This document shows positions 1,368 to 15,578 of a stretch of 23,238 bases of DNA, one piece after another. Position numbers and translations under genes: made by a program. Under the pieces are notes generated by a model. It was not told where the DNA came from, did no database searches, and saw nothing but the letters and a program-made list of their open reading frames with translations. Origin of the DNA: a virus; the IMG/VR virus record IMGVR_UViG_3300013006_000879, positions 1 to 23,238 of that record, one strand, 5' to 3'. Numbering within the stretch: position 1 is the stretch's first letter; each line of letters starts with the position of its first letter.

Positions 1368-1392
1368 TTTAATCAACTATTCACAGTATAAT
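1364..1392 (+). promoter_or_regulatory. sigma70-type promoter for clpA-like gene
   Basis: TTGATT (1364-1369, overlapping the dnaJ stop) and TATAAT (1387-1392) are 17 bases apart. Imperfect palindromes cover both boxes: GTTGAT/ATCAAC at 1363-1377 and ACAGT/ACTGT at 1383-1399. These could be operator sites, but that is only suggested by symmetry. Confidence 0.65.
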
Positions 1393-1424
1393 ACACTGTA
1401 CGCAACAAATCTATAAAGAATACA

Positions 1425-3704
1425 ATGCAAAATAATCCCGAAATTGATGAAATTGTTAACAACGCAATTGTTATTGCAACCGAGTATAACCATTCATACG
1501 TGATAACCGAACATGTATTGTTATCAATGATTCAGTATCCGCCATTTCGAACTCTGTTAGAAAAGTACGGTACTCCAGTTGAGCAACTTGAAGCAGAGGT
1601 ATCCGCATACATTTTATCTCAAATCAGTTTGCTTGCTGAACACAAAAATATAACACCACGCAAAACCAACGCATTAGAGAGAATGTTCAATCGAGCATTG
1701 ACACAGGTGCTGTTTACAGGTCGCAGGGCCATAACAATGTTGGATTTGTATCTGGCCATGATGAGCGAAACTAATAGTCATGCGCATTATTATTTGTTAA
1801 AATACAATGTTACCAAAACTGAGTTTTCTGAGTTTTTCCATAAGAACTACAATGCTCATGACAGAAAAATTACAAATTCCAAAGCAGACGAAATCTTAGG
1901 CGAGCACTGTATTAACTTTGCTAGACTTGCACAAGAAGGGCGCTTGGAACCCTTGATTGGTCGTGTTGCCGAGCTTGATGAAATGATCACTGTGCTGGCT
2001 CGCAAATTCAAAGCCAACGTGCTCATGGTGGGTGATCCTGGTGTAGGCAAAACTGCTGTGGTTGAAGGACTTGCACAAGAAATTCAAGCCGGGCGTGTGC
2101 CTGAATTCCTTAAAGGCAACGAAGTCTGGGGACTAGAAATTGGCTCGTTGCTGGCAGGATCTAAGTATCGCGGCGAGTTTGAAGAAAAGTTCAAGGATAT
2201 TATTTCAGCATTACAGGCCAAAAAGAACTGTGTGTTGTTTATTGACGAAGCTCATACCATGATGGGTGCAGGTACAAATGGCAATTCAAGTCTAGACTTT
2301 GCCAACATGATCAAGCCTGCAATCACACACGGACATTTAAAAGTCATTGCATCCACCACCTGGGAAGAATACTACGAATCGTTTGAAAAAGATCGTGCAC
2401 TAATGCGTCGATTCCACAGAGTCAGCATTGGCGAACCAGATGATGCAACCACAGAACAAATTCTCATTGGACTCAGTCCAAGACTAGAACAGTTCCACAA
2501 TGTGATGATTGACACAGATGCAATTACCACAGCAGTTGAATTATCAGGACGTTATATTCATGATCGCAAAAATCCCGACAAGTCAATTGATTTAATTGAT
2601 GGTGCATGTGCTGCCGAGCGTGTTAAAGATGCAGGCAATGTCACTGTGAACAAAGACATGATCATGGCTCAGGTCAGCCGTGTGACTAGTGTGCCATTGG
2701 ATCGCTTGCAAAATGAACGCAGTGTTAAAATTGTTGAACTTGAAAGCAATGTCAAACAGTTCTTGTACGGACAAGATCAAGCAATCGACACTGTGTTAGA
2801 ACGCATTTACATCAACTTCTCTGGTATTGGCAATGCTAAAAAGCCTATTGCTAGCTTTTTGTTCTTGGGTCCAACAGGCACAGGTAAAACAGAGCTTGCC
2901 AAGTTGTTGAGCGAACATCTCGACATGCAGTTGTTAAAATATGACATGAGTGAGTTCCAGGAAAAACACAGTGTGGCAAGCCTTATTGGTGCACCTCCCG
3001 GGTATGTTGGATTTGATGATGGTAATGTTGGTGGCGGCAAGTTAATCAGCGATATTTCTAAAAATCCTTTTAGCATTTTGTTGTTTGACGAAATTGAAAA
3101 GGCACACCCTGATGTGGTCAACATCATGTTGCAGATGTTAGATGAAGGCAAGATCACTGGCAGTAGTGGCAAAGCAGTTGATGTTAAAAACTGTATCATT
3201 ATTATGACTTCTAACCTGGGTGCTAGGGACAACGAAAACAACAATATTGGCTTCGGCAAAGCACTGGAAAAAACAGGCGAAGAAGATCGTGCAATGAAAG
3301 AGTTTTTCAAACCTGAACTGCGCAATCGCATTGATGCTATTTGTAAGTTCAACAAACTAGACACCTTGGCTATTAAAAAGATTGTGGTCAAGTTCACTGC
3401 AGAGTTACAGCAAAGCTTAATGGCCAAGAACATTCGTTTGCTGTTTGACGAAGCAGTAATTGATATGCTTGCAGAAAAAGGATACGATCCCAAAATGGGT
3501 GCACGTCCGCTATCACGCAAAATTGACGAACTTATTCGTGTGCCGTTGAGCAAGCGAATCTTGTTTGATCGATTGTCTGACTGCTCAATTCGCACATACA
3601 TTGACAATGATCAAATTCAATTTGAAACCACTGTTGCTAAACACACAGCCGTTGTTGACGACCAAGGATATATTTTAATTGACCAAGTTGCCCCACAAGC
3701 CTAA
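1425..3704 (+). CDS. ClpA-like double AAA+ unfoldase
   Basis: 759 residues, the usual ClpA length. It has an N-terminal Clp_N-like helical domain (1-145), then D1 with Walker A GDPGVGKT (203-210), Walker B LFIDEA (271-276) and pore loop KYRGEFE, then D2 with Walker A GPTGTGKT (482-489), Walker B LLFDE (552-556) and pore loop GYVGF (526-530). The coiled-coil middle domain of ClpB is missing, so this is a ClpA-type unfoldase, not a disaggregase. An IGF tripeptide at 608-610 sits where ClpA has IGL, the ClpP-binding loop, so it may dock on host ClpP. No ClpP gene is in the window. It follows the DnaJ-like gene and has its own promoter. Confidence 0.92.
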   Translation: MQNNPEIDEIVNNAIVIATEYNHSYVITEHVLLSMIQYPPFRTLLEKYGTPVEQLEAEVSAYILSQISLLAEHKNITPRKTNALERMFNRALTQVLFTGRRAITMLDLYLAMMSETNSHAHYYLLKYNVTKTEFSEFFHKNYNAHDRKITNSKADEILGEHCINFARLAQEGRLEPLIGRVAELDEMITVLARKFKANVLMVGDPGVGKTAVVEGLAQEIQAGRVPEFLKGNEVWGLEIGSLLAGSKYRGEFEEKFKDIISALQAKKNCVLFIDEAHTMMGAGTNGNSSLDFANMIKPAITHGHLKVIASTTWEEYYESFEKDRALMRRFHRVSIGEPDDATTEQILIGLSPRLEQFHNVMIDTDAITTAVELSGRYIHDRKNPDKSIDLIDGACAAERVKDAGNVTVNKDMIMAQVSRVTSVPLDRLQNERSVKIVELESNVKQFLYGQDQAIDTVLERIYINFSGIGNAKKPIASFLFLGPTGTGKTELAKLLSEHLDMQLLKYDMSEFQEKHSVASLIGAPPGYVGFDDGNVGGGKLISDISKNPFSILLFDEIEKAHPDVVNIMLQMLDEGKITGSSGKAVDVKNCIIIMTSNLGARDNENNNIGFGKALEKTGEEDRAMKEFFKPELRNRIDAICKFNKLDTLAIKKIVVKFTAELQQSLMAKNIRLLFDEAVIDMLAEKGYDPKMGARPLSRKIDELIRVPLSKRILFDRLSDCSIRTYIDNDQIQFETTVAKHTAVVDDQGYILIDQVAPQA

Positions 3705-4353
3705 TATTGTACTCAGGGATCGGTTGTTCTACGATCAATACCCCTACTGTATGTCTGCGGTTTTAAAAGAAGCATGTGCAATGAGAGAATTATCTCATGA
3801 GTTTATTGACAACGTTATTAGCGTTAGAAGACATTATTTGTTCAATAGCAAAAACTTTTATCGTCATAGATTAGCTCACATAAGTGATGATATAGTTACC
3901 AATCTGCACAAACTATGTCAGTTGCTGTTGGATACCTCACATCAATTTAAATTGGTAATTGAGTTCAACAGCATACGACTATATTCAATGGATGATGCGT
4001 TGCCCAGAGAAATACTGGACAGTAATATAGATCTAGGTTTTTTGAGTTTTAAACAGGCTGTTGTTGATCGACCACGTGACACAATTCAATTAAAAAATCC
4101 CCAGCATACACATCGTAGTTATTTCAATAGAGCTAAAATAACAGAAGCACAAAAAGAATCAATTGTTCATTTATTAAATAATAATACAGATACACTTAGA
4201 TTAAGTCCTGGATTAAAAACTTGGACTGTACAACCTTTTAAATGGACTGACACTTATTATTTTGTAGATCACAGTGATGAGAGCTGGATTTTAATGATGA
4301 GTTTGATACGTCCGCGTCTGATAAAAAAGACAATTCAGCTTATAAAATCATAA
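3679..4353 (+). CDS. conserved phage protein of unknown function, TTG start
   Basis: 224 residues. The start is TTG at 3679, inside the end of clpA, because no ATG occurs in frame until about 25 codons later and the early residues LPHKPNIVLRDRLFYDQYPYC look like real protein. An AGGA at 3665-3668 lies 10 bases upstream. The protein is basic, rich in Tyr, Arg and Leu, mostly alpha/beta in appearance, and has no signal peptide or membrane segment. I recognise no catalytic motif. The 26-base overlap with clpA suggests translational coupling. It could be a structural or host-directed protein; no function is claimed. Confidence 0.7.
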   Translation: MTKLPHKPNIVLRDRLFYDQYPYCMSAVLKEACAMRELSHEFIDNVISVRRHYLFNSKNFYRHRLAHISDDIVTNLHKLCQLLLDTSHQFKLVIEFNSIRLYSMDDALPREILDSNIDLGFLSFKQAVVDRPRDTIQLKNPQHTHRSYFNRAKITEAQKESIVHLLNNNTDTLRLSPGLKTWTVQPFKWTDTYYFVDHSDESWILMMSLIRPRLIKKTIQLIKS

Positions 4354-4363
4354 GTAATATACT

Positions 4364-4528
4364 ATGGCAAAAATACACGAAGAAATAGTTGTGATCAAAC
4401 TATCAAAATTGGTCAAAGATAGCGATGCAGGTGGCGAGATTGCCACAGCTGATATTGTTTCTGCATTGCAGTCTGTAGCAGAAGAACTTGCAGGTGTAGG
4501 TGTTGTTGTTGAAGCCGAAAAGGCCTGA
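4364..4528 (+). CDS. small conserved phage protein (54 aa)
   Basis: The ORF starts ATG GCA AAA ATA CAC and ends TGA at 4526-4528, giving 54 residues: MAKIHEEIVVIKLSKLVKDS, then an acidic, Ala/Val-rich half ending VVVEAEKA. It lies between two genes with gaps of 10 and 2 bases, which supports it as real. A helical segment SALQSVAEELAG is evident. There is no clear Shine-Dalgarno sequence. Similar very short acidic proteins occur near structural genes in T4-like phages, but I assign no function. Confidence 0.6.
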   Translation: MAKIHEEIVVIKLSKLVKDSDAGGEIATADIVSALQSVAEELAGVGVVVEAEKA

Positions 4529-4530
4529 GC

Positions 4531-4890
4531 ATGTCCACAACAATTACCTTGTTTAGCAATGTAGTAGTTGGCACACCCAATGGCAATTATGACGGCAGTA
4601 GCACGTATTTCGAAAGCGATGCTGCCAGAGCTGCAGGCTACTATCAAGGCCAAGGAAGTTTACAAACAGTATTCATTACTGTGACAGACTTTGTTGGGCA
4701 GATAACATTACAGGCAACTTTAGATTTTGATCCTACCACTGCCAAATGGTTTGATGTGTATGATTACGCCAACGATTCCACAGAATTCAGATTTCCCATA
4801 AACTTAACCGGTAACTTTGCCTGGATCAAAGCAGTTGTCACTGGTTTTGAAGATGTGTCAGTCATAGACTCTGTAACTTTAACATATTAA
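4531..4890 (+). CDS. beta-rich protein, possible virion component
   Basis: 119 residues, starting 2 bases after the preceding stop. Composition is rich in Thr, Val, Phe, Tyr, Asp and Gly, with alternating hydrophobic strands (TITLFSNVVV, QTVFITVTDFVGQITLQATL, FAWIKAVVTGF, VSVIDSVTLTY). No Cys, signal peptide or membrane helix is present. The pattern fits an all-beta sandwich such as a small head, neck or tail accessory protein. Neighbours on both sides are similar small beta-rich proteins. The structural role is an inference from composition and context, not from a recognised motif. Confidence 0.55.
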   Translation: MSTTITLFSNVVVGTPNGNYDGSSTYFESDAARAAGYYQGQGSLQTVFITVTDFVGQITLQATLDFDPTTAKWFDVYDYANDSTEFRFPINLTGNFAWIKAVVTGFEDVSVIDSVTLTY

Positions 4891-4900
4891 TAATATCACC

Positions 4901-5335
4901 ATGAGCAAAATGTCAATTACATTTGACTTAGATTCATCTGACTATACTGCTGAGTTAGCATTTGATGCAATGTTAAATGATGTTGTGGTATTTTCATCAG
5001 ATCATGTTGCCGCACCTGAATCTGTAATCATTGGCTTGCCCGACAATGACGGAGAATACGAACTTAAATTTGTGCTGAAAAACAAGTTAGAAAAACACAC
5101 AGCAATTGACCTAAACAAAAATATTGTCAAGGATGCTGTGTTAACTGTGTCCAATGTGACATTTGATGAAATTAAACTTGGGCACATGTTCACTAAATTA
5201 GCTGTGTATAATCATGATCACAACGGCACAACTACCGTGGGTGAACATAAATTCTATGGTGACATGGGTTGCAATGGATACGTAAGTTTAAAATTTACTG
5301 CGCCAATTTACCTGTGGTTGTTGGAAAATATGTAA
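4901..5335 (+). CDS. beta-sandwich-like protein, unknown function
   Basis: 144 residues. ATG at 4901 is chosen; a second ATG at 4910 is possible and neither has a good ribosome site. Predicted strands include MSITFDLDSSDYTAELAF, YELKFVLKN and KDAVLTVSNVTFDEI, followed by a His/Gly-rich loop (YNHDHNGTTTVGEHKF) and a C-terminal strand YVSLKFTAPIYLWLLENM. The alternating pattern looks like an Ig-like or carbohydrate-binding fold; this is an impression only. It follows the preceding beta-rich gene by 10 bases and ends just before a TAAATA-type late promoter. Possible virion accessory or host-surface binding protein. Confidence 0.5.
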   Translation: MSKMSITFDLDSSDYTAELAFDAMLNDVVVFSSDHVAAPESVIIGLPDNDGEYELKFVLKNKLEKHTAIDLNKNIVKDAVLTVSNVTFDEIKLGHMFTKLAVYNHDHNGTTTVGEHKFYGDMGCNGYVSLKFTAPIYLWLLENM

Positions 5336-5336
5336 G

Positions 5337-5344
5337 CATAAATA
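5337..5344 (+). promoter_or_regulatory. T4-late-like promoter box
   Basis: CATAAATA matches 7 of 8 bases of the T4 late consensus TATAAATA. It lies 7 bases before the ATG at 5352, inside a small palindrome (GCATA-AA-TATGC, 5336-5347). No Shine-Dalgarno sequence follows, so the message may be leaderless. Confidence 0.45.
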
Positions 5345-5351
5345 TGCTATA

Positions 5352-6122
5352 ATGAATTATCTTGTAATTTACCCCGGACGTTTTCACCCATTTCACAAAG
5401 GTCACATGGCCAGTTATGATTGGCTGACCAAACAGTTTGGTGACAACAATGTGTTTGTTGCTACCAGCAATGTGCAAGCACCTATTACTAGTCCTTTTAG
5501 CTACAGTGACAAAGTTGCAATGATGACCAAGCTGGGCATTCCTGCCAGTCAAATTGCCAATGTAAAAAATCCCTATCAAGCCATTGAAATTACCAGTAGT
5601 ATTCCAGATGAAAACCAGCGTGACACAGTGCTAGTGTTTGCCGTGAGTGCCAAGGATGCTGAACGTTTTAATTTTGCCCCTAAAAAAGATGGGTCTTTGA
5701 GTTATTTGCAACCCCTGCCCAAAAATGCAAAAAAACTAAAGCCCATGACCCAGCACGGATATGTTGTTATCACTCCAACTATCAACTTTAAAATCAATGG
5801 AGTAGATGCCAATAGTGCCAGTGAAATTCGCAAACTGTATATCAAGGGCAATGGCCACGACAAAAATCAAATCATAGCGGATTTATACGGACAACCCGAT
5901 CCTGCACTTCGTGACATATTTGACAAGAAATTAGGCATTACTGAACAAACACAAAACTACATACGAGAATCTCGAGCTGTGGACAAAGCTCGAGCTGTGG
6001 ATTGGATGCAACGTGTGCTGGTTTTAGAACAACAGGCTCAAAGTTACACCCAACCCACACAACTAATTTTAACACAATTGACTGTGGATTACATAGACGA
6101 AAAAAATTACGGTCGAAACTAA
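5352..6122 (+). CDS. HxGH nucleotidyltransferase, NMN-adenylyltransferase-like
   Basis: 256 residues. The N-terminus has the cytidylyl/adenylyltransferase signature: YPGRFHPFHKGH with HxGH at 15-18 (H15, G17, H18), and SASEIRKLY at 155-163, the equivalent of the ISxTxxR motif that binds the ATP triphosphate. Family enzymes transfer AMP or CMP to a phosphate substrate; the PGRFxPxHxGH form is common in NMN adenylyltransferases (NadM/NadR type), which make NAD from NMN and ATP. The C-terminal 60 residues are an extra helical region with an 18-base tandem duplication. Substrate cannot be fixed from sequence; pantetheine-phosphate or sugar-phosphate substrates are alternatives. A role in NAD repair during infection is possible (inference). 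Confidence 0.75.
   Translation: MNYLVIYPGRFHPFHKGHMASYDWLTKQFGDNNVFVATSNVQAPITSPFSYSDKVAMMTKLGIPASQIANVKNPYQAIEITSSIPDENQRDTVLVFAVSAKDAERFNFAPKKDGSLSYLQPLPKNAKKLKPMTQHGYVVITPTINFKINGVDANSASEIRKLYIKGNGHDKNQIIADLYGQPDPALRDIFDKKLGITEQTQNYIRESRAVDKARAVDWMQRVLVLEQQAQSYTQPTQLILTQLTVDYIDEKNYGRN
5971..6006 (+). repeat. two-copy 18-base tandem duplication inside the HxGH enzyme gene
   Basis: CTCGAGCTGTGGA occurs at 5971-5983 and again 18 bases later at 5989-6001. The copies are in frame and encode SRAVDK and ARAVDW. It looks like a small in-frame duplication in the C-terminal extension. Confidence 0.6.
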
Positions 6123-6149
6123 AGTTAGTAAATATTACACTAACTTTTT
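6121..6149 (+). terminator. weak hairpin with T run, with TAAATA box in the loop region
   Basis: AAAGTTAGT (6121-6129) pairs with ACTAACTTT (6139-6147), a 9-bp AT-rich stem followed by TT. The stem-loop also holds AGTAAATA (6127-6134), like a T4 late -10 box. Downstream AAGGAAA is the ribosome site for the ATG at 6159. It may act as terminator, late promoter or both. Confidence 0.45.
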
Positions 6150-6158
6150 AAGGAAATC

Positions 6159-7031
6159 ATGGCTGACGCAATACCAACAACACAACTTCCGTCCCAACCA
6201 CTGGGCGGTCAAAATCAAATTCAAGTCAACATTGACTTGATAAAAACAACTCGTGTGCATATTTGTATGCCTTGCTATGGAGGCCAATTAACTGAGTCTA
6301 CATTTATGAGTTTCATCAAATGGTCAAATACTGCTCGTCAGCTGGGTATTGACTGGACCATGGAAACCATGACCAACGAAAGTTTAATCAGCCGTGCACG
6401 TAACACATTAACTGCTAAGTTTTTAAACAACAAAGACAGCACACACTTGTTCTTTGTGGATGCTGATATTGGCTGGGAGCCATGGCATTTGCTAGTTTTA
6501 TTAAACAGAGATGTTGACGTTATTGGTGGATTGTACCCAATGAAATCATTGCCTATCAAATGGTGTGTCAACGGCTTTGATGGTGCAGAAGAAGGTCCCG
6601 ACGGCTTACAAGAAGTATCAAAAACAGGCACAGGATTCTTGTTGATCAAGCGTCATGTGTTTGATCAACTCAATGCACATCCTGCTACAAAACCGTTCTT
6701 GAACGATATTGGATTGCCGCCAGAACTTAATCCTTACATGAAAACTTATTTTGACACTGCTGTGCGTGAAAACCGCTACTACTCAGAAGACTGGACATTC
6801 TGTGAAAACTGGCGTGACCTAGGCGGTAAAGTCTGGGTTGACAAACGTGTGCTGTTGCGCCACACAGGCACATACACATTTGCCCACGAAGCCCAAGAAC
6901 AGCTTATTCAAAGTTTTGGTCCCATGTACGAAGCTAAAAAAGCCGAAGTTGCCGCAGCCGCTCTGCCTGCCGCTGTTGCTCCCCCTCCTGTAGAAAGCAA
7001 AGTAATAGCATCAAAAAAGAAAAAGAAATAA
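6159..7031 (+). CDS. GT-A type glycosyltransferase
   Basis: 290 residues with AAGGAAA as ribosome site. After a 30-residue leader, strand VHICMPCYGG begins a GT-A fold. NESLISRARN (73-82) and the metal-binding DxD in FFVDADIGW (D101, D103) follow, then VIGGLYPMKS and an acidic pair in YYSEDWTFCENW, typical of family 2-like enzymes acting on nucleotide-sugars. The last 35 residues are Ala/Pro-rich and end in a run of Lys, a feature not needed for catalysis. It probably transfers a sugar to phage DNA bases, virion protein or host envelope polysaccharide; the acceptor is unknown. A strong terminator follows at 7052-7079. Confidence 0.8.
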   Translation: MADAIPTTQLPSQPLGGQNQIQVNIDLIKTTRVHICMPCYGGQLTESTFMSFIKWSNTARQLGIDWTMETMTNESLISRARNTLTAKFLNNKDSTHLFFVDADIGWEPWHLLVLLNRDVDVIGGLYPMKSLPIKWCVNGFDGAEEGPDGLQEVSKTGTGFLLIKRHVFDQLNAHPATKPFLNDIGLPPELNPYMKTYFDTAVRENRYYSEDWTFCENWRDLGGKVWVDKRVLLRHTGTYTFAHEAQEQLIQSFGPMYEAKKAEVAAAALPAAVAPPPVESKVIASKKKKK

Positions 7032-7051
7032 CATAATTTAACTTTAAATCC

Positions 7052-7079
7052 AAAAAGCCACTTTACCCAGTGGCTTTTT
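7052..7079 (+). terminator. Rho-independent terminator
   Basis: AAAAAGCCACT (7052-7062), loop TTACCC, AGTGGCTTTTT (7069-7079): an 11-bp perfect stem with A and T tracts on each side, so it could work in both directions. It closes the unit ending with the glycosyltransferase gene. Confidence 0.88.
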
Positions 7080-7086
7080 CATTTAC

Positions 7087-7094
7087 ACTAAATA
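7087..7094 (+). promoter_or_regulatory. T4-late-like promoter box
   Basis: ACTAAATA lies 7 bases before the ATG at 7102, the same spacing as the box before 5352. A TATAAT (7096-7101) directly abuts the ATG, but no -35 element fits 17 bases upstream. No Shine-Dalgarno sequence is present. Confidence 0.45.
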
Positions 7095-7101
7095 TTATAA
7101 T

Positions 7102-10100
7102 ATGAACATACTAGAGTTAGATTCCTACAACCTTGCTGACGCTGTCAAGTTTAATGACCGGTTAAATCCTCGTTTGTGGGACAAAAACGAACACCTACTG
7201 CCAGTGGTGCATGAGAAACTGCTGGCAATAGCAGATGATTTTCGTGAGTTCTTGGGTGTAACAGGATTCGAGCTCAAGGACATCACACTCAGCGGATCCA
7301 ATGCCGCTTACACATACACACCCAACTCTGACATTGATCTACACTTGGTGGTGGACTTGCCGCAGGCTGATGCCAGCAAAGTATATCGCGAATTATTTGA
7401 CGCTAAAAAATATCAATACAACGATCAACACAACATCAGCATTGGCGGATATCCTGTGGAGTTGTATGTACAAGATGCCAACAAGGCACACCATAGTCAA
7501 GGTATCTACAGTGTGTTGAACAATCAGTGGATTGACGTGCCAAAACGTCGAGATGTCGGAGTTGATGACATATCTACTCGTAGCAAGTATGAAGATCTTG
7601 CCAAAAGAATTGATACTGCTGTTGAATCCAATGACCACGAAACTATGGCTAACTTGATGAAGAAAATCAAAGCCATTCGTCAAACAGGACTAGACAAGCA
7701 CGGTGAGTTTGGTCCTGAAAATCTAGCATTTAAAATGCTTCGCAGCCAGGGTGCTATTAAACGCTTGGTTGATGCAAGAGATGCTGCCAAAGATCATGAG
7801 TTGAGTTTGCGAGAACGTGCTCGTGTTAAAAAACCATTTGTGTATGGATTCAAAACTGAAGATGTAGGATCATCCTGGGACGGAGTAAATCCCACTACCC
7901 AGATGTTCTTGAATGAAAAACCATCGTTGTCAACACAAGAAATAGTTTCAGACTTTGTTAATTACTGTGTAGAACAATTGAGCATTGAGCATGATCCAAT
8001 AGTAAAGTTCAAACGTGATCCGGCTTGGAGTGCTCGTAATAAAACATTTGGTCGTTATACCAAAGAAAACAATGTGTTGGAAGTAAGTTTAGCTGGACGA
8101 CATGTCATGGACGTACTACGCACTGTGGCACACGAACTCACACATCAAAGACAAAACGAAGTAGCAGATGTTCCAGATCATGCAGGTGAAACCGGCAGTG
8201 ACTGGGAAAACGAAGCAAACGCAAAAGCTGGTGTGCTCATGCGTGAGTATGCTCAACGACATCCTGAATATTTTGCAGATGGACAAATTGAAGAAAGCTC
8301 TGGTTATATTCCTACAAAAGCCCAGGCCAAGGACCCAAGATTCAAAATGGCATTGACAAAAGATGTACGTCCGGGTGCCACTGGCAAAGAAGCTAACAAA
8401 TTAAACCTGCACACAGATTCACAAGGTCATCCTGGATTGTTAATGACCGGACTGGCCAATTCTTTAAAAGAGTTCAAAGAAACTGGTAAATTGCCACCTA
8501 TATACGAAGACGAACTGTTTGAAATCAACATGGGTCCTGCTAGTCTACGCAAAGAGGCTGCCAAGACAGGTGCCATTGCGGGCATGGAATTTGAAATGAT
8601 TGTGCCCAATGTTGAAGGCGATGATGAAGATGCAGAGCCGGAACCAGACTGGGATTATGATCAAAGTGTTGGCGGCATCAGTGATGCGGTTGATTTCTTT
8701 GATGATGCCGGACAAAACAGCAGAAGAGACCTGGAAAGACTTCGTGAACGCATGCAAGAGAACTATGAACAATGGTTATCCGAATCTTTTGATTCTCGGT
8801 GGGACGGCGATGAGTTAGAGTTTATTTTTAACTACATTAAAGAAAATGCCAGTGCAGAAGAAATTGCAGAAATAATGGGCACAGAACCCAACGAAGATGG
8901 TGAGTATCCTGACCCAGATAAACGAGATTATCTTGATGCCGCAAACAAAATTAGCGAACAAGGCTACGGCAACTATTGGTACGATTCGGCCAGAGAGAAT
9001 GCACAAGAAGAATTCTACACAAATGCTGACCAAGAAAGCGAATGGTTAGAAGATCAAGAAATCAATACCATGCAAGATGTCATGAATACCTTTGGCACAG
9101 TTGATTGGCCACATTGGAATACACCCGGCACTGGTGGCGATAGAAGCATTGAAGATGTGGCCAATGATTTTCAAGATGCCATAGGTCGTGATGTTCAAGC
9201 CAGCGGCAGATATCATTCTGGCGAGGTAGAGCGTCCTAGCACAAAATCAGATCACTATGTGGTTGAACCTGATGGCAGTTTAGAAGGCGACGACTACGGA
9301 GACAAAGGGCTGGAGTTTGTGAGCCCTCCCTTGCCCATTGACGTAATGATCAACGACTTGAACAAAGTCAAACGCTGGGCCAAGGCCAATGGTTGCTACA
9401 CCAATGACAGCACTGGACTGCACATTAATATTTCAGTACCTGACTTTGATCGATCAAAACTTGATTTTGTTAAGTTAGCCATACTCATGGGCGACGAGTA
9501 TATACTGGATCAATTTGGCAGAAAAGGTAATTTTTATGCCAAGTCAGCAATGAAAATTGTCAAAGATAGAATTGCACAAAATCCTGACGATGCACAGGCA
9601 TTGTTGGACAAAATGAAAGGTCAGGTTGAAGAGCTTGCTTCAAGAGCAATTCATTCTGGACACACAGAAAAGTACACAAGTATCAATGTCAAGAGCGGTC
9701 ACATTGAATTCCGTTCACCCGGCGGCGACTGGCTAGATGAAAACTTTGACAAGATTGAAAACACCCTGTTGCGTTTCACAGTGGCACTGAGCGCGGCAAT
9801 GAATCCTGAAATGTATCGCCAGGAATATCTAAAGAAATTGTACAAAATATTGGCTCCCGAAGGCTCAGATGACAGCATCAAATACTTTGCCAAGTATGCC
9901 GCTGGTGAGCTGCCACAGGCTGCATTGAAGAGTTTTGTTCGTCAAGCACAACTAGACCGCAAGTTAAAGAAAGATCCAACTGGTGGTAAACGATACTGGT
10001 GGAAAGTTACTAATCCTGGAAATAGCAATGCTGGTATAGAAGTTGTTGCCACAACCAAACAAGAAGCAATCGAAAAAGCCATTGGTGCAGATGGTTACCC

Positions 10101-10791
10101 AAGCTGGGCTAACAATAAGAGGTCGCTAGTTGTTAAACCATTGAGTCCTTATCAAGAAAAATCTGATCGCGAAGACTCTGCTGAACAGACTCCCAAGTAT
10201 GAAATCTACAACAAGCAAACTGGCAACTCAGTAGAGCCTGCGGATGGAATTACCAACGATGCGGACGCATTGGTTCGCCTGAATGATTATATTGAACACG
10301 GTCCACATGCGTTGCAACGAGGGCAGGCCACTGCTATGTTTGGCATTAGGCCTGTGAATCAAGCTAGTACTACTGCGCCCAGAGGCAGGGAATATCAAAT
10401 CTTCGATCAAAACAGTCAACAAACTGCGGCAGCATTCCTAGCGCCAAGTGATGAGGCAGCACTGGCTAGACTACTTCAGTATCAGCGCAGGAACCCCGAT
10501 GATCCATATGGTGTGCGCACTGCCAATGGAGTTGAAGTAGTTGACATAGACATACCAATGGCTCCGGGTCGTGCGGCACAACCTGGTAGCACAACAGATT
10601 TACAACAACAACGCACAGCACCCGGCACATTTACTGGTGCTTGGAAGGTAGTTGTTTCTAGTACTGGTGAAGAAGTGTATCGCTTTTCGGGCATAGGTAA
10701 CAACCAAGGCGATGCCAACAGAGTTGCCGCAGACTGGGCGCGACGATCTAGATTAGACGATCCAATTGAAGTTTTACCAATCATGAGTTAA
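7102..10791 (+). CDS. multidomain nucleotidyltransferase / zincin / amidoligase protein
   Basis: 1229 residues. Residues 1-130 resemble a polymerase-beta-type nucleotidyltransferase: GSNAAYTYTPNSDIDLHL has the GS motif and DxD (D77, D79), with a possible third acid near 119-125. Residues about 275-395 carry a zinc metallopeptidase motif, HELTH at 344-348, with ENEANAKAG (369-377) as a likely third ligand. A linker module (SGYIPTKAQAKDPRF to FEINMGPASLRKEAA) leads to an amidoligase-like domain: GMEFEM (494-499), GLEFVSPP (736-743), GLHINIS (772-778), HIEFRSPGGDW (867-877). The C-terminus holds four degenerate repeats (966-1227). Amidoligases form amide bonds between amines and carboxylates using ATP. 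The combination suggests a protein or metabolite modifying polyprotein; whether it is cleaved is unknown. Confidence 0.85.
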   Translation: MNILELDSYNLADAVKFNDRLNPRLWDKNEHLLPVVHEKLLAIADDFREFLGVTGFELKDITLSGSNAAYTYTPNSDIDLHLVVDLPQADASKVYRELFDAKKYQYNDQHNISIGGYPVELYVQDANKAHHSQGIYSVLNNQWIDVPKRRDVGVDDISTRSKYEDLAKRIDTAVESNDHETMANLMKKIKAIRQTGLDKHGEFGPENLAFKMLRSQGAIKRLVDARDAAKDHELSLRERARVKKPFVYGFKTEDVGSSWDGVNPTTQMFLNEKPSLSTQEIVSDFVNYCVEQLSIEHDPIVKFKRDPAWSARNKTFGRYTKENNVLEVSLAGRHVMDVLRTVAHELTHQRQNEVADVPDHAGETGSDWENEANAKAGVLMREYAQRHPEYFADGQIEESSGYIPTKAQAKDPRFKMALTKDVRPGATGKEANKLNLHTDSQGHPGLLMTGLANSLKEFKETGKLPPIYEDELFEINMGPASLRKEAAKTGAIAGMEFEMIVPNVEGDDEDAEPEPDWDYDQSVGGISDAVDFFDDAGQNSRRDLERLRERMQENYEQWLSESFDSRWDGDELEFIFNYIKENASAEEIAEIMGTEPNEDGEYPDPDKRDYLDAANKISEQGYGNYWYDSARENAQEEFYTNADQESEWLEDQEINTMQDVMNTFGTVDWPHWNTPGTGGDRSIEDVANDFQDAIGRDVQASGRYHSGEVERPSTKSDHYVVEPDGSLEGDDYGDKGLEFVSPPLPIDVMINDLNKVKRWAKANGCYTNDSTGLHINISVPDFDRSKLDFVKLAILMGDEYILDQFGRKGNFYAKSAMKIVKDRIAQNPDDAQALLDKMKGQVEELASRAIHSGHTEKYTSINVKSGHIEFRSPGGDWLDENFDKIENTLLRFTVALSAAMNPEMYRQEYLKKLYKILAPEGSDDSIKYFAKYAAGELPQAALKSFVRQAQLDRKLKKDPTGGKRYWWKVTNPGNSNAGIEVVATTKQEAIEKAIGADGYPSWANNKRSLVVKPLSPYQEKSDREDSAEQTPKYEIYNKQTGNSVEPADGITNDADALVRLNDYIEHGPHALQRGQATAMFGIRPVNQASTTAPRGREYQIFDQNSQQTAAAFLAPSDEAALARLLQYQRRNPDDPYGVRTANGVEVVDIDIPMAPGRAAQPGSTTDLQQQRTAPGTFTGAWKVVVSSTGEEVYRFSGIGNNQGDANRVAADWARRSRLDDPIEVLPIMS
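9997..10779 (+). repeat. four degenerate ~50-residue coding repeats
   Basis: The C-terminal part of the 1229-residue protein has four related segments: WWKVTNPG (966-1013), YEIYNKQTGNSV (1033-1085), YQIFDQNSQQTA (1097-1148) and WKVVVSSTGEEVYRF (1180-1227). Each has an aromatic-x-[IV] strand, a TG or similar turn, a second strand, and an Ala/Glu helix, as in small alpha/beta modules. Divergence is high, so they are old duplications. Confidence 0.5.
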
Positions 10792-10792
10792 T

Positions 10793-11434
10793 ATGCGAGC
10801 ACAAGAATTTATTGTAGAAGTTTTTAATCAACCCTATAAAATACTTCGATGGGAAAAAGGTGACTTTGGTGATGTAGACGCAATAGCACGATTGGATGAC
10901 AACACCTTTCTAAGTATTATGTTCAACAAGGGATTTGGTAAAGATACAAAAGAGGAAACATGGAGTGTTGAGTTTTATAGAAACAACAGCCAACAAGTCA
11001 CAGGAGAAGGTGATCAACAACGTGTGTTTGCCACAGTGTTAAGTGCTATACAACAGTTTATCGACACTGAACATCCTGTTCACATTCGCTTCTCTGCTAA
11101 CAAAGATGTTGACCCAGGACAAAAATCACAAACTCGATCAAATCTATACAACAAGTTAGTTCAGCGTTATGCCAACAGTTGGGGATATAGTGTTGATATT
11201 GACGATTTTGCTGATACTACTGTATATAATTTATATACTCTACACGAAAGTGTAACGGAAAACTTTGCCGACGGCAAAGTAAAAGGCAAGAGTCGCCCAG
11301 GGCGTGTTAAACGGTCGGGTGCCAGTTGCAACGGATCAGTTACTGATCTACGTGCTCGTGCCAAGAATGCATCAGGCGAAAAGGCCAAGATGTATCACTG
11401 GTGTGCCAACATGAAATCAGGGAAAAACAAATGA
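10793..11434 (+). CDS. probable internal head protein with capsid-targeting-like N-terminus
   Basis: 213 residues. The N-terminus MRAQEFIVE|V matches the T4 internal-protein targeting peptide (MKTYQEFIAE|A), which the prohead protease removes after Glu. Residues 10-150 form an alpha/beta domain (YKILRWEKGDFGDVDAIARL, WSVEFYRNN, HIRFSANKD). The C-terminal 55 residues, from ENFADGKVKGKSRPGRVKRS to RAKNASGEKAKMYHWCANMK, are a basic module I recognise as recurring at the ends of many T4-like phage proteins, with two Cys here. It starts 1 base after the preceding stop and its TGA overlaps the next ATG (ATGA). Packaging in the head and a DNA-binding tail are inferences. Confidence 0.65.
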   Translation: MRAQEFIVEVFNQPYKILRWEKGDFGDVDAIARLDDNTFLSIMFNKGFGKDTKEETWSVEFYRNNSQQVTGEGDQQRVFATVLSAIQQFIDTEHPVHIRFSANKDVDPGQKSQTRSNLYNKLVQRYANSWGYSVDIDDFADTTVYNLYTLHESVTENFADGKVKGKSRPGRVKRSGASCNGSVTDLRARAKNASGEKAKMYHWCANMKSGKNK

Positions 11435-12159
11435 GAGCCATAGAATTTATAGTAGAGAATGCCAGTGAGATCGTGTCTGCCAGTGATGATGGCAAAACTA
11501 TCACAATTAAGGTGCGGGCACCGGATGGTACGGTACGGTCAATTGCTAATTCAAATCCAGCAATTATACAAAAATGGTTAAATCTCAAATATGGTCTAAG
11601 ACTTCCGCACAGTATTGCTAGAAAGTTTGTGGGTATACCGACTGCAATGGCAGAAGATCAAGCAGATGATCCTGACAGTTGGCAATCACAAGCGGCAGAT
11701 GCTGAACGCAATACTGAAACTGCTCGGATGTCTGCACAAGATGCTGCCGCCGGCGGACTAGCAGAACAAGAACTAGATGAAAAATCTGCAAGCAAAGCCC
11801 AGTTCCGTACAATGGCAGCGGCTGCACACAATCCAGAGTTTGCCAAGAAAGTTGGTATCAAACAGTCTGTTGCTCAAGAATTTCACAGTGCAGACAAAAA
11901 ATCAAACTACAAGACATTGCCCAAGAAAACCGCAGAAGGCGAAGTTGATGAAATGCTTGGATTTACTATTGCTCGAGCAGCCCAGCCCAAAAAGCCTGTG
12001 CCCAGTTTGGCAACAATGCGCAAAGAATTTGAAAAAGATAAATCTGCACAAATTGAAAAACCTGCACAAGGCCGCAGTGGCTCCGGCAATGTAAAATATA
12101 TTCGAAAAACAACAGATGAAGACGGCACTTGGGGCATGCTTGAACAGAAAAAGTCATGA
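11431..12159 (+). CDS. modular protein with capsid-targeting-like N-terminus
   Basis: 242 residues from the ATG at 11431, chosen over an upstream GTG because of the ATGA overlap, an AGGGAAAA ribosome site and the N-terminus MRAIEFIVE|N, nearly identical to that of the preceding protein. Residues 12-68 are a small alpha/beta domain (ITIKVRAPDGTVRSI). The middle is low complexity and acidic, with possible prohead-protease junctions MAE|D (75), LAE|Q (112), LDE|K (117). Residues 118-166 (SASKAQFRTMAAAAHNPEFA onward) resemble the DUF3008-type phage module SKxQQRFM..VAKEF. The C-terminus is basic. It is probably carried in the virion and processed; the function of each module is unknown. Confidence 0.65.
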   Translation: MRAIEFIVENASEIVSASDDGKTITIKVRAPDGTVRSIANSNPAIIQKWLNLKYGLRLPHSIARKFVGIPTAMAEDQADDPDSWQSQAADAERNTETARMSAQDAAAGGLAEQELDEKSASKAQFRTMAAAAHNPEFAKKVGIKQSVAQEFHSADKKSNYKTLPKKTAEGEVDEMLGFTIARAAQPKKPVPSLATMRKEFEKDKSAQIEKPAQGRSGSGNVKYIRKTTDEDGTWGMLEQKKS

Positions 12160-12344
12160 AAGCCAAGGAAATCATCAACGGTGCCAAACAATGGACAGCT
12201 AAGGTTCGAGTGCAAAATCCTCAGTATGTAGGATGGGTAGACGCTGTGGCATGGGCTCCTAACGCACACGTTGCAAGACAAATTTTTAAGACACAATACA
12301 ATATCCAAGACTGGCACATAGGCTCAATCAAACAAGTTCATTAA
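12156..12344 (+). CDS. small single-module phage protein
   Basis: 62 residues starting in an ATGA overlap with the upstream stop. MKAKEIINGAKQ is followed by WTAKVRVQNPQYVGWVD, AVAWAPNAHVARQIFKTQY and DWHIGSIKQV. This reads as one compact alpha/beta module: two strands, a helix with ARQIF, and a final strand. I recall similar stand-alone and fused versions in T4-like environmental phages. The first residues resemble, but lack the EFI core of, the capsid-targeting N-termini nearby. No enzyme motif is visible. Confidence 0.6.
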   Translation: MKAKEIINGAKQWTAKVRVQNPQYVGWVDAVAWAPNAHVARQIFKTQYNIQDWHIGSIKQVH

Positions 12345-12350
12345 ACTACG

Positions 12351-12358
12351 ACTAAATA
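12351..12358 (+). promoter_or_regulatory. T4-late-like promoter box
   Basis: ACTAAATA lies in the 18-base gap before the ATG at 12363, with only CACA between box and start codon. There is no Shine-Dalgarno sequence. The sequence is the same as the box at 7087. Confidence 0.4.
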
Positions 12359-12362
12359 CACA

Positions 12363-12644
12363 ATGAAACAATTTGTTCGTGTATTATGTGACGTTGAGTG
12401 TAAGTGGACTGGTAAGCCTCCTGTTTACCGTGCCTACATTGACGACGAATTGTTTGCTGAACGCACATGGATTTGGCACAACGAATATCTCGAAGAAATG
12501 TTTCAAATTGAAGCTGTGCCCGGAGATTATGCCATACGTTACGAGCTTGTGTCATCGCCTGACGCTTTTTTAAAAGTTTCAAACATACGAGTTGAGCACG
12601 GCCCTGGTAGAATAATAGATAACACTTTAAGGATTGGACGATGA
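12363..12644 (+). CDS. small beta-rich phage protein
   Basis: 93 residues: strand-rich segments KQFVRVLCDVECKW, PVYRAYIDDELFAERTWIW, YLEEMFQIEAVPGDYAIRYEL and FLKVSNIRVEHGP. The ERTWIW...EYLEEM...PGDY pattern looks like a compact beta domain found in other T4-like phages, possibly carbohydrate- or virion-binding. Two Cys (9 and 13) are close together. Its stop overlaps the next ATG by four bases. It has no ribosome site and follows a TAAATA box, so it may be expressed late from a leaderless message. Function unknown. Confidence 0.6.
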   Translation: MKQFVRVLCDVECKWTGKPPVYRAYIDDELFAERTWIWHNEYLEEMFQIEAVPGDYAIRYELVSSPDAFLKVSNIRVEHGPGRIIDNTLRIGR

Positions 12645-12841
12645 AAGCCAGTGAATTTATCAAGGAAAATGCATCTGTGGGTGGCACCTCTTCTGGTTCT
12701 GTTGCCACTGTGGCATCTCCTTTGGGCGGCGTAATATCAAGAAATGGTGATAGTTTCTTTGCTGGTAAATATACCACGGATCCTTTTCCCAATACCCCAA
12801 AAAGAATGAGAAAGAAACAAGGAAAAACAAATGTTAAGTGA
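12641..12841 (+). CDS. short protein with capsid-targeting-like N-terminus
   Basis: 66 residues starting in an ATGA overlap. MKASEFIKE|N is the clearest match here to the T4 internal-protein N-terminus. The mature part would be about 57 residues: a Gly/Ser/Thr-rich stretch (ASVGGTSSGSVATVASPLGG), ISRNGDSFFAGKY, and a basic tail (PKRMRKKQGKTNVK). Low-complexity Ser/Gly followed by a basic tail would suit a DNA-associated internal head peptide (inference). It overlaps the start of the Dps gene by 11 bases, so the two are likely translationally coupled. Confidence 0.65.
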   Translation: MKASEFIKENASVGGTSSGSVATVASPLGGVISRNGDSFFAGKYTTDPFPNTPKRMRKKQGKTNVK

Positions 12842-13271
12842 TTTGCTAAAGACCTATTTGGCCAGTACATTTTCGTACTACTTAAAAGCACACTATTTTC
12901 ACTGGAATGTGGAAGGACCTGACTTTGGCGAACTACACGATTTTTTCTCAGACATCTACGAAGATTCCTATTCGGCTGTGGATCCCATTGCTGAATACAT
13001 ACGCACCCAGGATGAATATGCACCAGGCAGTCTCTCCCGCTTCCTAGAATTGACACAAATCCCTGATCAAACCAAAGTACCACGTGCTCGTTTGATGCTA
13101 GAAGAATTACTTGCAGACACACAAACCATGATTGACCTAAGCCTGTCTGTGTTCAACGAAGCCACCGGGGCTAATCGTCAAGACATTGCCAACTTTGCCG
13201 CTGAACGCCAAAGTCAACACGGCAAATATATGTGGCAACTAAAAAGTTATTTAAAGGAAGCAAGGGCATAA
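12831..13271 (+). CDS. dps: Dps-type ferritin-like protein
   Basis: 146 residues, close to typical Dps length. FHWNVEGPDFGELHDFF is the Dps/ferritin-like signature. Assuming an ungapped alignment to Listeria Dps (offset 7), the ferroxidase ligands fall on H24, H36, D51 and E55, all present. The C-terminal helix ERQSQHGKYMWQLKSYL also fits. Dps proteins form 12-subunit cages that oxidise Fe(II) with peroxide and protect DNA. The N-terminus is short and lacks the Lys-rich DNA-binding tail. AAGGA lies upstream of the ATG, which is inside the preceding gene. In a phage it may protect DNA from peroxide damage or act inside the virion (inference). Confidence 0.88.
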   Translation: MLSDLLKTYLASTFSYYLKAHYFHWNVEGPDFGELHDFFSDIYEDSYSAVDPIAEYIRTQDEYAPGSLSRFLELTQIPDQTKVPRARLMLEELLADTQTMIDLSLSVFNEATGANRQDIANFAAERQSQHGKYMWQLKSYLKEARA

Positions 13272-13272
13272 C

Positions 13273-14046
13273 ATGGACGAAATGCACAGCATAATGCAAC
13301 GACTTGCATTGATTGAAAGTCAAATTACGCCAGACTCAGTGACCAAAGGATTAAACGCACAGCAACGGTCTGTGCCGCAGATGCCTGCACTGTTTAAGAT
13401 GCCTGCACAAGGTCCTGTGCTTGGCGGTGATCCGGATAAAAAAGCACCCAGTGCCGGCTACATGGTAGGTGCCAGTGAAGACGAAGAAGTTGAAGAAAAA
13501 GTCAGCGACTTCTTGCCTAAGAAACCAGACCATGCTAGTACTCACAAGCTGGTCAAAGGCTGGAGAACTGTACACGGACTTGACGAAGAAGTGGCCAGCG
13601 AAGATAAATTAGACAAGGTTAAAAAATCTTTTGCAGATTATCTTGACAGCATCAGCAACGAAAAACAAGACACTGATTTAAAAGACCGAGTCAAGGCCGA
13701 TACGGACCTTAAGAAAAAAGACAAAAAAGATCACAGTATTGTAGCCAAGCAGATCACTGCCGTGGCCGAAGATCCTACAGAAGAAGATCCCATCATTCAA
13801 ATGCCCACAACTCCCATGCAGAATCCTGTGTACGGCGAGTCAGCACCTGTTAAGACTGTGGCATTAGAAGACGGCCGTGCATGCGAAATACATGGTGACG
13901 AAGGAAGAGGATTTGAAATTCGTCACGGGGGACGTTCACTAAAAAGCCGTTTTAAAAATTTAGACCAAGCACAAATGGCTGTGGAAATGTACCAAGCTAG
14001 ACAACGCAAACAAAATGAGTCTGCTGATTATATTGAGGAAGCATAA
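13273..14046 (+). CDS. modular acidic phage protein
   Basis: 257 residues, starting 1 base after dps with AAGG upstream. The N-terminus MDEMHSIMQRLALIE|S could carry a cleavage site after LIE (15). The middle (65-170) is highly charged, with Lys/Asp/Glu repeats and a VAE|D junction (166). A C-terminal domain (about 192-257, VKTVALEDGRACEIHGDEGR then FEIRHGGRSLKSRF and ADYIEEA) is a compact module I recognise as recurring in phage mosaic proteins. The helix ADYLDSISNEKQ lies near 121-132. No enzyme motif is seen. The stop overlaps the next start by one base (TAATG). Possible virion-packaged or scaffold-like protein. Confidence 0.6.
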   Translation: MDEMHSIMQRLALIESQITPDSVTKGLNAQQRSVPQMPALFKMPAQGPVLGGDPDKKAPSAGYMVGASEDEEVEEKVSDFLPKKPDHASTHKLVKGWRTVHGLDEEVASEDKLDKVKKSFADYLDSISNEKQDTDLKDRVKADTDLKKKDKKDHSIVAKQITAVAEDPTEEDPIIQMPTTPMQNPVYGESAPVKTVALEDGRACEIHGDEGRGFEIRHGGRSLKSRFKNLDQAQMAVEMYQARQRKQNESADYIEEA

Positions 14047-15578
14047 TGAATTTAAATGACCTATACGAAATAAGAGACCCACGCGATGCATATGAACGTG
14101 ACGTTGACAATAGCACCAGTGGGTTTGGCAAAGACTCCTATGCATATCAGCAAGATGGTGGAGCCAATGATGAGAATCATGCATTTGACCAGCAACCCAC
14201 TTGGTATATTCGCCTTAATGGCAAACTCATTAAAGACAAGCAAGGTAACCCTTATGCATTCCAAGACAAAGCTGCCGCAAACAAAGCCGCTTTAAACATG
14301 CAGGCCAAACTGTTCAATAAAGACAAAGAGTTCATGTTGACTACCAACCCCAATGATAAACCCCAAGGCATGGCAGAAGGTCTAGTAGGTGCCGCATTAG
14401 GTGGCTTAGCAGGTGCCGCGTTAACCAAGTCTCCCGGTGGGGCAATGACTGGTGCATCAATTGGCAGTAACATACAAGATACTTTGAGTGATGATACCGA
14501 AGTAGCAGAAGGGTTCGGTGCAAACTACGCAGAACAACTAGCACAAAAGGTATTTGATGTTAAACCCAACTTGGCCAGTGACGACGATGTGTTAAACACA
14601 GGATACAAAGTTGCTGTGCAAGATCTAATGAGCCAGGTACGTGCAAATCATTTGTTTGCAAGAGATCAAGATTTCCCTAGCGATTTTGCAAGTGCTTATT
14701 ACTACTTGCAAAAACGAGGCGTAGCAGAAGGCCACACAGAAGTAAAAGACAAAGAAGGCAAAGTTGTCAGTTGGAAAGACGACTCAGAATGGCACCCAGC
14801 TGAAAAGAACAAGCAAGGCCAACCTAAAGATCCACGTGGCGTAGTCACACACATGAGCGATGTTGCTCGGCGTAAAACTGCTAGCCAACAAGGTGTAGCA
14901 GAAGCCGAAGTAGACAGCGATGGCCACTCAATGGATCACGCTGACTCTGGCGAGTACGATTACGAAGGCGACCAAGCAAAAGACCAATTAAACACCATTG
15001 TACGGGCGGCTCGCAGACTCAATGGCATGTTGGATGACAACGAAAACATGCCAGAGTGGGTACAGATGAAAATTACCAATGCTGCCGATTATATTGACAC
15101 AGCCGCTGACTACATTGAATCCAATCAAGAGCCCGAGTTGGATGAAGGCTGGAAAGAAAAGCTAGGCGGTGCGGCATTAGCAGGTGCAATGGCACTAGGC
15201 GCAGGCAGTGCCCAAGCTAGAGTTACCCCTGATGGTCAAGGTGGCTTTACCGGTGGATTAAAACCTGCAACAACGCAACAAGCAACTGACGTTGCTCCTG
15301 CAAAAGCAGAAGCTCCAAAAGGATACAGCAAAGAATACCTACAAAAAGCAGCCAACCCTGATAGATTTGGTAGGTACATGATCAGCGTCGAAAAGGCACA
15401 AGAGTTACTAAAGCAAATGAACGAAGGTGACAAAATTGGCAACATGGATGCCGACAAGTTTGATGCGGTCATGGCACGTCTTAAACAGTTGGCCGGTGCA
15501 GGTCCAATGAAAACTGTGTATGACCCTACTAAACGTGTGTACAGAAATGTTCCAACAGCGGTGCAACCTAAAAAATGA
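14046..15578 (+). CDS. mosaic polyprotein of phage modules joined by xAEG linkers
   Basis: 510 residues. Modules are separated by hydrophobic-x-Glu sites: MAE|G (111), VAE|G (155), VAE|G (228), VAE|A (286), LDE|G (367). Module 1 has TWYIRLNGKLIKDKQG and a helix; module 2 is a glycine-zipper stretch (GLVGAALGGLAGAAL); module 3 is helical (NYAEQLAQKVFDVKP to SAYYYLQKR); module 4 has VKDKEGKVVSWKDD; module 5 is a helix pair ending EWVQMKITNAADYIDTAADY, seen in many T4-like phage proteins; module 6 starts with a hydrophobic Ala/Gly segment (372-392). Linker DNA is also similar (GTAGCAGAA at 14502, 14721, 14894). This looks like a protein built by module shuffling, perhaps cut in the prohead. Confidence 0.65.
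   Translation: MNLNDLYEIRDPRDAYERDVDNSTSGFGKDSYAYQQDGGANDENHAFDQQPTWYIRLNGKLIKDKQGNPYAFQDKAAANKAALNMQAKLFNKDKEFMLTTNPNDKPQGMAEGLVGAALGGLAGAALTKSPGGAMTGASIGSNIQDTLSDDTEVAEGFGANYAEQLAQKVFDVKPNLASDDDVLNTGYKVAVQDLMSQVRANHLFARDQDFPSDFASAYYYLQKRGVAEGHTEVKDKEGKVVSWKDDSEWHPAEKNKQGQPKDPRGVVTHMSDVARRKTASQQGVAEAEVDSDGHSMDHADSGEYDYEGDQAKDQLNTIVRAARRLNGMLDDNENMPEWVQMKITNAADYIDTAADYIESNQEPELDEGWKEKLGGAALAGAMALGAGSAQARVTPDGQGGFTGGLKPATTQQATDVAPAKAEAPKGYSKEYLQKAANPDRFGRYMISVEKAQELLKQMNEGDKIGNMDADKFDAVMARLKQLAGAGPMKTVYDPTKRVYRNVPTAVQPKK
14502..14902 (+). repeat. dispersed linker repeat GTAGCAGAA
   Basis: Copies at 14502-14510, 14721-14729 and 14894-14902 are all in frame and encode VAE at module borders. A variant with ATGGCAGAA is at 14370-14378. 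The last two exact copies and the variant share a [CG]AAGG- or GAGGC-like upstream context. They could be recombination points for module exchange or simply encode a conserved cleavage site. Confidence 0.5.

Follow-up and report, generated by a model that had tools for sequence, protein, structure and literature searches.

The stretch of DNA analysed here (the window) is the whole of a viral contig record, IMGVR_UViG_3300013006_000879, of 23,238 bases. As read from its sequence, it is a fragment of a T4-superfamily jumbo phage of ~350 kb. By its family B DNA polymerase the contig belongs among the T4-superfamily jumbo phages; Sinorhizobium phage Phosso (50%) and Agrobacterium phage Atu_ph07 (47%) are its closest isolates, and the closest uncultured contigs share 96% identity. 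Among its large relatives are G001 (the 347-kb record behind L001) and G002 (the 364-kb record behind L021); window positions 579–15578 are syntenic with 53.6–66.8 kb of G002, with modules shuffled between genes. The genes discussed below contain the following features, in which a slash marks a predicted cut.

7102–10791, + strand: 1229-aa multidomain protein (nucleotidyltransferase-like, HExxH metallopeptidase-like, amidoligase); amidoligase module from 8524, after the predicted cut site ELFE/
10793–10819, + strand: leader MRAQEFIVE of protein 1, predicted cut after E9
10820–11242, + strand: domain A of protein 1 (VFNQPYKILRW..), compact alpha/beta with an acetyltransferase-like arrangement
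11249–11260, + strand: predicted internal cut site SVTE/ of protein 1
11261–11431, + strand: basic tail module of protein 1, NFADGK..RPGRVK..MYHWCANMKSGKNK; elsewhere directly behind MRAQEFVTE
11431–11457, + strand: leader MRAIEFIVE of protein 2, predicted cut after E9
11458–11655, + strand: first module of protein 2, NASEIVSASDDGKTITIKV.., with C-terminal predicted cut site TAMAE/
11656–11781, + strand: DQADDPDSW.. module of protein 2, closing with ELDE/; directly behind MRAREFIIE in L152/L340
11782–12156, + strand: KSASKAQFRTM module and C-terminal tail of protein 2; PBECO4 gp454 and the 121Q "structural protein" contain a homologous module
12156–12344, + strand: MKAKEIIN-GAKQW protein, leader-like start without P1 Glu
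12641–12667, + strand: leader MKASEFIKE of protein 3; orthologues alternate leader forms, with P1 Glu constant
12668–12838, + strand: mature protein 3, N-terminus NASVGGTSSGSVATV, matching the predicted processed N-arm of a gp23-type capsid protein
13273–14046, + strand: modular protein, predicted cut site VAE/DPTEEDP at 13771
14046–15578, + strand: modular polyprotein, start MNLNDLYE; predicted sites GMAE/ 14379, VAE/ 14511, GVAE/ 14730, GVAE/ 14904 and LDE/ 15147

A Dps/ferritin-like protein (12831–13271; PF00210, E 1.1e-18) lies within this cluster, flanked by a leader gene on one side and a modular gene on the other. Elsewhere in the window, adjoining DnaJ-like and Clp-type AAA+ genes (579–3704) are syntenic at G002 66.8–63.7 kb, and positions 1–288 encode a protein fragment with a C-terminal His/Asn-rich stretch, HNHNHNHNHEHGPHG. 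In G001 and G002, SATGN[IV]TGGN pentapeptide repeats are very common, probably in fibre-like proteins.

A nine-residue leader on unrelated proteins

The original prediction had reported three related N-termini in the window, and their positions and sequences are exact on re-reading: ATG starts at 10793 (MRAQEFIVE, 213 aa), 11431 (MRAIEFIVE, 242 aa) and 12641 (MKASEFIKE, 66 aa). They are far beyond chance. The pattern M[KR]xxEF[ILV]xE was counted twice in the window, against 0.0 expected when the residues after the start were shuffled (200 shuffles); the count is two rather than three because the gene caller lost the third leader gene to an overlapping reverse ORF. In two related genomes the pattern was found five times against 0.005 expected and twice against 0.02 expected. 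A direct scan with the codon pattern gave six leader starts in G001 and one in G002; the reversed pattern gave none. The MRAxEFIxE codon pattern has 133 exact matches across the IMG/VR loci, and all but one (132) begin an ORF of 50 or more codons, as do 24% of random ATGs. Among eight isolates (PBECO4, Atu_ph07, Phosso, CBB, 2.275.O, PA5oct, KVP40 and T4), five of them relatives by polymerase, no nine-residue M[KR]xxEFxxE start was found.

What stands behind the leader? In a census of the IMG/VR loci, 197 proteins start with M[KR]x(1-3)EF[ILV]x[ED], and the bodies behind them form 31 single-linkage families, so that a conserved N-terminus fronts about 31 kinds of body. The mature parts of the three window proteins had been described as mutually unrelated, and they do fall into three separate single-linkage families at E<=1e-3. 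Twenty leader-bearing proteins were scanned for known domains. Over the cut-off, in relatives, were an ADP-ribosyltransferase (ART; PF03496, ADPrib_exo_Tox; 48.4 bits versus 23.4), GNAT acetyltransferases and a GH19 glycosidase; below it were ART-PolyVal (27.9 bits, cut-off 31.2) and Kinase-PolyVal (21.1, cut-off 27). In one relative (L206), an ART domain lies directly behind MRAKEFIPE.

Short leader proteins also occur in groups. A conserved adjoining pair of 123–129-aa leader proteins is found at 247028–247782 of G001 (L096) and at 218097–218854 of G002 (L112); both members of the G001 pair end in SPVKGF[RK]GYPR, and L207 has several short, pair-type leader genes in a row. The 129-aa pair protein of G002 had no match when tested against isolate phages.

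The leader had been likened to the start of T4 IPI and IPIII, and this holds in part. As read from the T4 record, MKTYQEFIAE is the start of IPII and IPIII; IPI begins MKTFKEFTSTTTPVSTITE and is similar in its first part only. The other T4 control starts are MLKEQLIAE (gp22), MAKINELLRE (gp24) and MNEPQLLIE (gp21). In IPIII, targeting depends mainly on residues 4 and 7 and processing on residues 8 and 10, and a protein with Asp at position 10 is targeted but uncut (PMC9026906). The window leaders keep F, I and E at the positions equivalent to IPIII residues 7, 8 and 10. Like IPI, IPII and IPIII, the window proteins thus combine a short N-terminal leader (..EF-I-x-E/) with variable, unrelated bodies, and a gp21-type protease and a gp23-type capsid protein are found in related genomes. 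Unlike the T4 proteins, they have a leader of nine residues (MRAxEFIxE), with eight-residue variants (M[KR]xxEIME), and their bodies are often made up of multiple modules with further internal cut-site motifs.

A junction signature between modules

Such internal motifs, which the original prediction did not include, are present besides the leader in both protein 1 and protein 2. The genes at 7102–10791, 13273–14046 and 14046–15578, likewise absent from that prediction, appear from their sequences to belong to the same set as the leader genes. In the first of these, Pfam recognises Amidoligase_2 (38.7 bits, cut-off 22), NTP_transf_2 scores below its cut-off (19.1 bits, cut-off 21), and no Pfam family matches the HExxH segment.

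Modules that stand behind the leader in one gene reappear deep within other genes, directly after [LVIM]xE. Of 43 distinct internal contexts, leader starts excluded, 36 have Glu at P1 and 33 have L, V, M or I at P3, and P2 and P4 to P12 are mixed; the background of [LVIM]xE is 1.4% of positions. The signature recurs from module to module. Glu occupies P1 in all 67 contexts, leader contexts included, of the basic tail module NFADGK (searches for which gave no match in isolate phages), in 12/12 of the amidoligase module, where P3 is L or I, and, for other neighbouring modules, in 9/9 of GWKEKLGG, 4/4 of GHTEVKDK and 11/13 of DPTEEDP. The metallopeptidase module of the 7102 protein agrees with the rule in three of eight contexts, for which the alignments are imprecise. 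Several unrelated module families thus carry one junction signature, which argues against a Glu intrinsic to the domains. Some contexts are related by descent, so nominal binomial values overstate the significance, and the argument is independent of them. Counts of [LVIM]xE-type words per protein, set against shuffles, rank some modular proteins high, but this result is noisy.

The SKAQ module of protein 2 is free-standing, with an initiator Met, in 26 contexts and stands behind E ([LVI]xE) in 21; since it occurs both with and without a preceding Glu, that residue is a property of the junction rather than of this module. In PBECO4 and 121Q, proteins with the SKAQ module carry the annotation of virion structural proteins.

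Domain A of protein 1 behaves in the same way as the other modules, with Glu at P1 in 25/25 contexts (leader contexts included), V, I, L or F at P3 in 24/25, and positions as deep as residue 962 of a protein. In the Vibrio T4-like phages R10Z and D491s, its homologues read SVNLTE/AFDRPSKIHW and MKFEQFME/SLNRTVPIRW, respectively, and a weak match in KVP40 (E 0.3) reads MKFSEYQNELTE/AFDRPAQ. A free-standing protein of Pseudomonas phage PA5oct, recorded as a structural/virion protein by ESI-MS/MS, gives a weak match to domain A (E 3e-3). The AlphaFold2 model of the domain is confident, with a pLDDT of 86 and a pTM of 0.84. Many of its viral fold matches are long multidomain phage proteins, and it matches Alt of Aeromonas phage phiAS5 moderately (TM 0.60, E 2.8e-3). 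At the sequence level there is no match to T4 Alt (hhalign probability 0.2%), so that only the moderate fold match points to Alt. The PDB fold matches (an RNase E subdomain, antizyme and GNATs) have Z of about 7 to 9.5; no enzymatic function is claimed from them, since matches of this strength are mostly attainable by a common arrangement.

Are the internal junctions cut at all? The leader might be a targeting and processing signal, with the internal [LVIM]xE junctions being uncut remnants of recombination, at which the leader Glu was carried along with an inserted module. Modules are indeed exchanged between genes with a leader and sites within other proteins, and a junction Glu could have been inherited from a leader. 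However, the residues upstream of P3 (M, R, A and EF) are lost at the internal junctions, where the aliphatic P3 and the Glu at P1 are kept and P2 is free. That P3 and P1 persist when the other leader residues are lost points to a protease signature rather than a leftover, and we consider it unlikely that the junctions are mere remnants.

Protease and capsid protein in related genomes

If the leader and the junctions are protease sites, which protease would cut them? Neither an S77/gp21 protease nor a capsid gene is found within the 23-kb window; the absence of the protease is to be expected of a fragment. A gp21-like protease is present in close relatives, where the S77/gp21 profile matches G001 (E 1.5e-25), G002 and G003. 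It is also found in 9 of 13 long records that carry modules or leaders (G002 counted again), and a gp23-type capsid protein is found in G001–G003 and eight more records. G001 has a set in T4 order: a portal-like gene, an acidic core-like protein, the S77 protease, a scaffold-like protein and the gp23-type capsid protein. The protease and the capsid protein are profile matches, and the portal-like, core-like and scaffold-like members are judged by position and sequence only. G007 (343 kb, the record behind L277) has domain A, but neither an S77 protease nor a gp23-type capsid protein was detected in it.

Protein 3 links the leader to the capsid protein. Its 24 distinct orthologues have either MRAxEFIxE or M[KR]xxEIME as leader, and in both forms the Glu stays in place ahead of NAS, TAS or TTT; the module as a whole has Glu at P1 in 16/16 contexts, leader contexts included. 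Just N-terminal to their folded part, the gp23-type capsid proteins of these phages read RKYLKE/NASAGSTAAGNIATL, KYLAE/SATAGATAASNVATL and similar, to be compared with the protein 3 junction SEFIKE/NASVGGTSSGSVATV (FIKE/NASVG, versus YLKE/NASAG in the capsid protein). When all ORFs of G001 were searched for the best ungapped match to the 12641-type N-terminus, the capsid protein site YLKE/NASAG came first with a score of 61, the next scoring 32. Searches for the 66-aa protein in isolate phages gave no match. Protein 3 and the capsid protein therefore share a predicted processing site, and it is simplest that the same protease would cut both.

The junctions could instead be cut by another protease, such as the metallopeptidase module of the 7102 protein. 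Polyvalent proteins have been proposed to be processed by zincin-like peptidases (Iyer et al. 2017, PMC5512222), and 7102–10791 does have an HExxH segment. However, the site of the 12641 family is common to the gp23-type capsid protein, whose T4 counterpart is cut by gp21, and the [LI]xE cleavage consensus of T4 gp21 substrates is, compared as sequence, that of the window leaders and of the capsid-protein site in the relatives. A separate junction protease thus seems very improbable next to a prohead protease of the gp21 type.

Even less probable, in our estimation, is that the leader serves some other purpose (recruitment to a replication compartment, for example, or a shared translation start context) and that its likeness to T4 is convergent. 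A leader-like start without the Glu does exist, in the 12156 protein, whose homologues commonly begin M[KR]AKE[IV][IV] with N, R, K, S or E at P1. Against this, the switch between MRAxEFIxE and M[KR]xxEIME keeps both P3 and P1, and the same bodies stand behind internal [LVIM]xE, sites that a start context or a localisation tag leaves unexplained. The 12156 protein itself is probably uncut; it may be targeted without cutting, as IPIII with Asp-10 is, or it may not be cargo.

Capsid targeting and cutting after the Glu, as originally predicted, is thus well supported by sequence comparison: the protease and the gp23-type capsid protein are present in close relatives, the site is common to the capsid protein, the P1 Glu and aliphatic P3 are kept in orthologues and in unrelated contexts, and homologues of two of the bodies are virion-annotated in other phages.

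Predicted head cargo and its release

We therefore regard it as likely that the three leader proteins and the surrounding modular proteins are internal head cargo, cut by the prohead protease at the leader and at the junctions. The leader would act like the T4 capsid targeting sequence, pulling the protein into the prohead core, where a gp21-type prohead protease would then cut after the leader Glu ([LVIM]xE/). The same protease would cut the [LVIM]xE sites between modules, converting polyproteins into separate cargo pieces within the head, and some of these pieces may be ejected with the DNA. Several observations speak against this reading: the window without protease or capsid gene, G007, the 12156 start without the Glu, the eight isolates without a nine-residue start, and the poor fit of the metallopeptidase module to the junction rule. 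Ejection into the host is suggested by analogy with T4. An anti-restriction role would be an analogy only, and none of the bodies is meaningfully similar to an anti-restriction protein (the 13273 protein gives a weak DdrA-like match, E 0.011, which is not meaningful).

T4 leader biology, polyvalent proteins and the head proteolysis of SPN3US and phiKZ are already known. For modular cargo separated by prohead-protease sites, no earlier description was found in the open literature, to which the search was confined. Polyvalent proteins of phages and conjugative elements may be akin to this set; they are multidomain, with ART, GNAT, kinase-like and peptidase-like domains, and are thought to be delivered with the DNA; the published idea for their processing invokes internal metallopeptidases (Iyer et al. 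2017, PMC5512222), whereas here a prohead-protease signature is found at the leader and the module junctions. T4 Alt, a packaged ADP-ribosyltransferase, has a leader-like start (MELITELFDE), but the window proteins are without a recognised ART domain. In the giant phages SPN3US and phiKZ, head proteins are cut after Glu by the prohead protease and cargo is ejected into the host, as is predicted here; SPN3US differs in its AxE sites and mostly long propeptides (PMC5694885), in place of [LVIM]xE and a nine-residue leader.

How would such genes evolve? It is reasonably probable, though less so than head packaging itself, that these phages rely on a single prohead protease and a common [LVIM]xE linker rule as a general cargo-release system. 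Behind one leader, cargo genes would then evolve as modules are inserted between the cut sites, and the resulting polyproteins would be cut into many pieces in the head. Host-acting modules (ART, GNAT and kinase-like), the basic tail module and the look-alike of the capsid N-arm would be freely exchanged among genes.

If this is true, the T4 internal-protein system, with its few small proteins, would widen into a strategy of modular polyproteins, and multidomain "polyvalent" cargo would be tied to one specific processing enzyme, a connection that is directly testable. Virion proteomics is hard in uncultured jumbo phages, and many such proteins are without any other clue to function. The leader and the junction rule would then list, from the genome sequence, the head-packaged and probably injected proteins of these phages.
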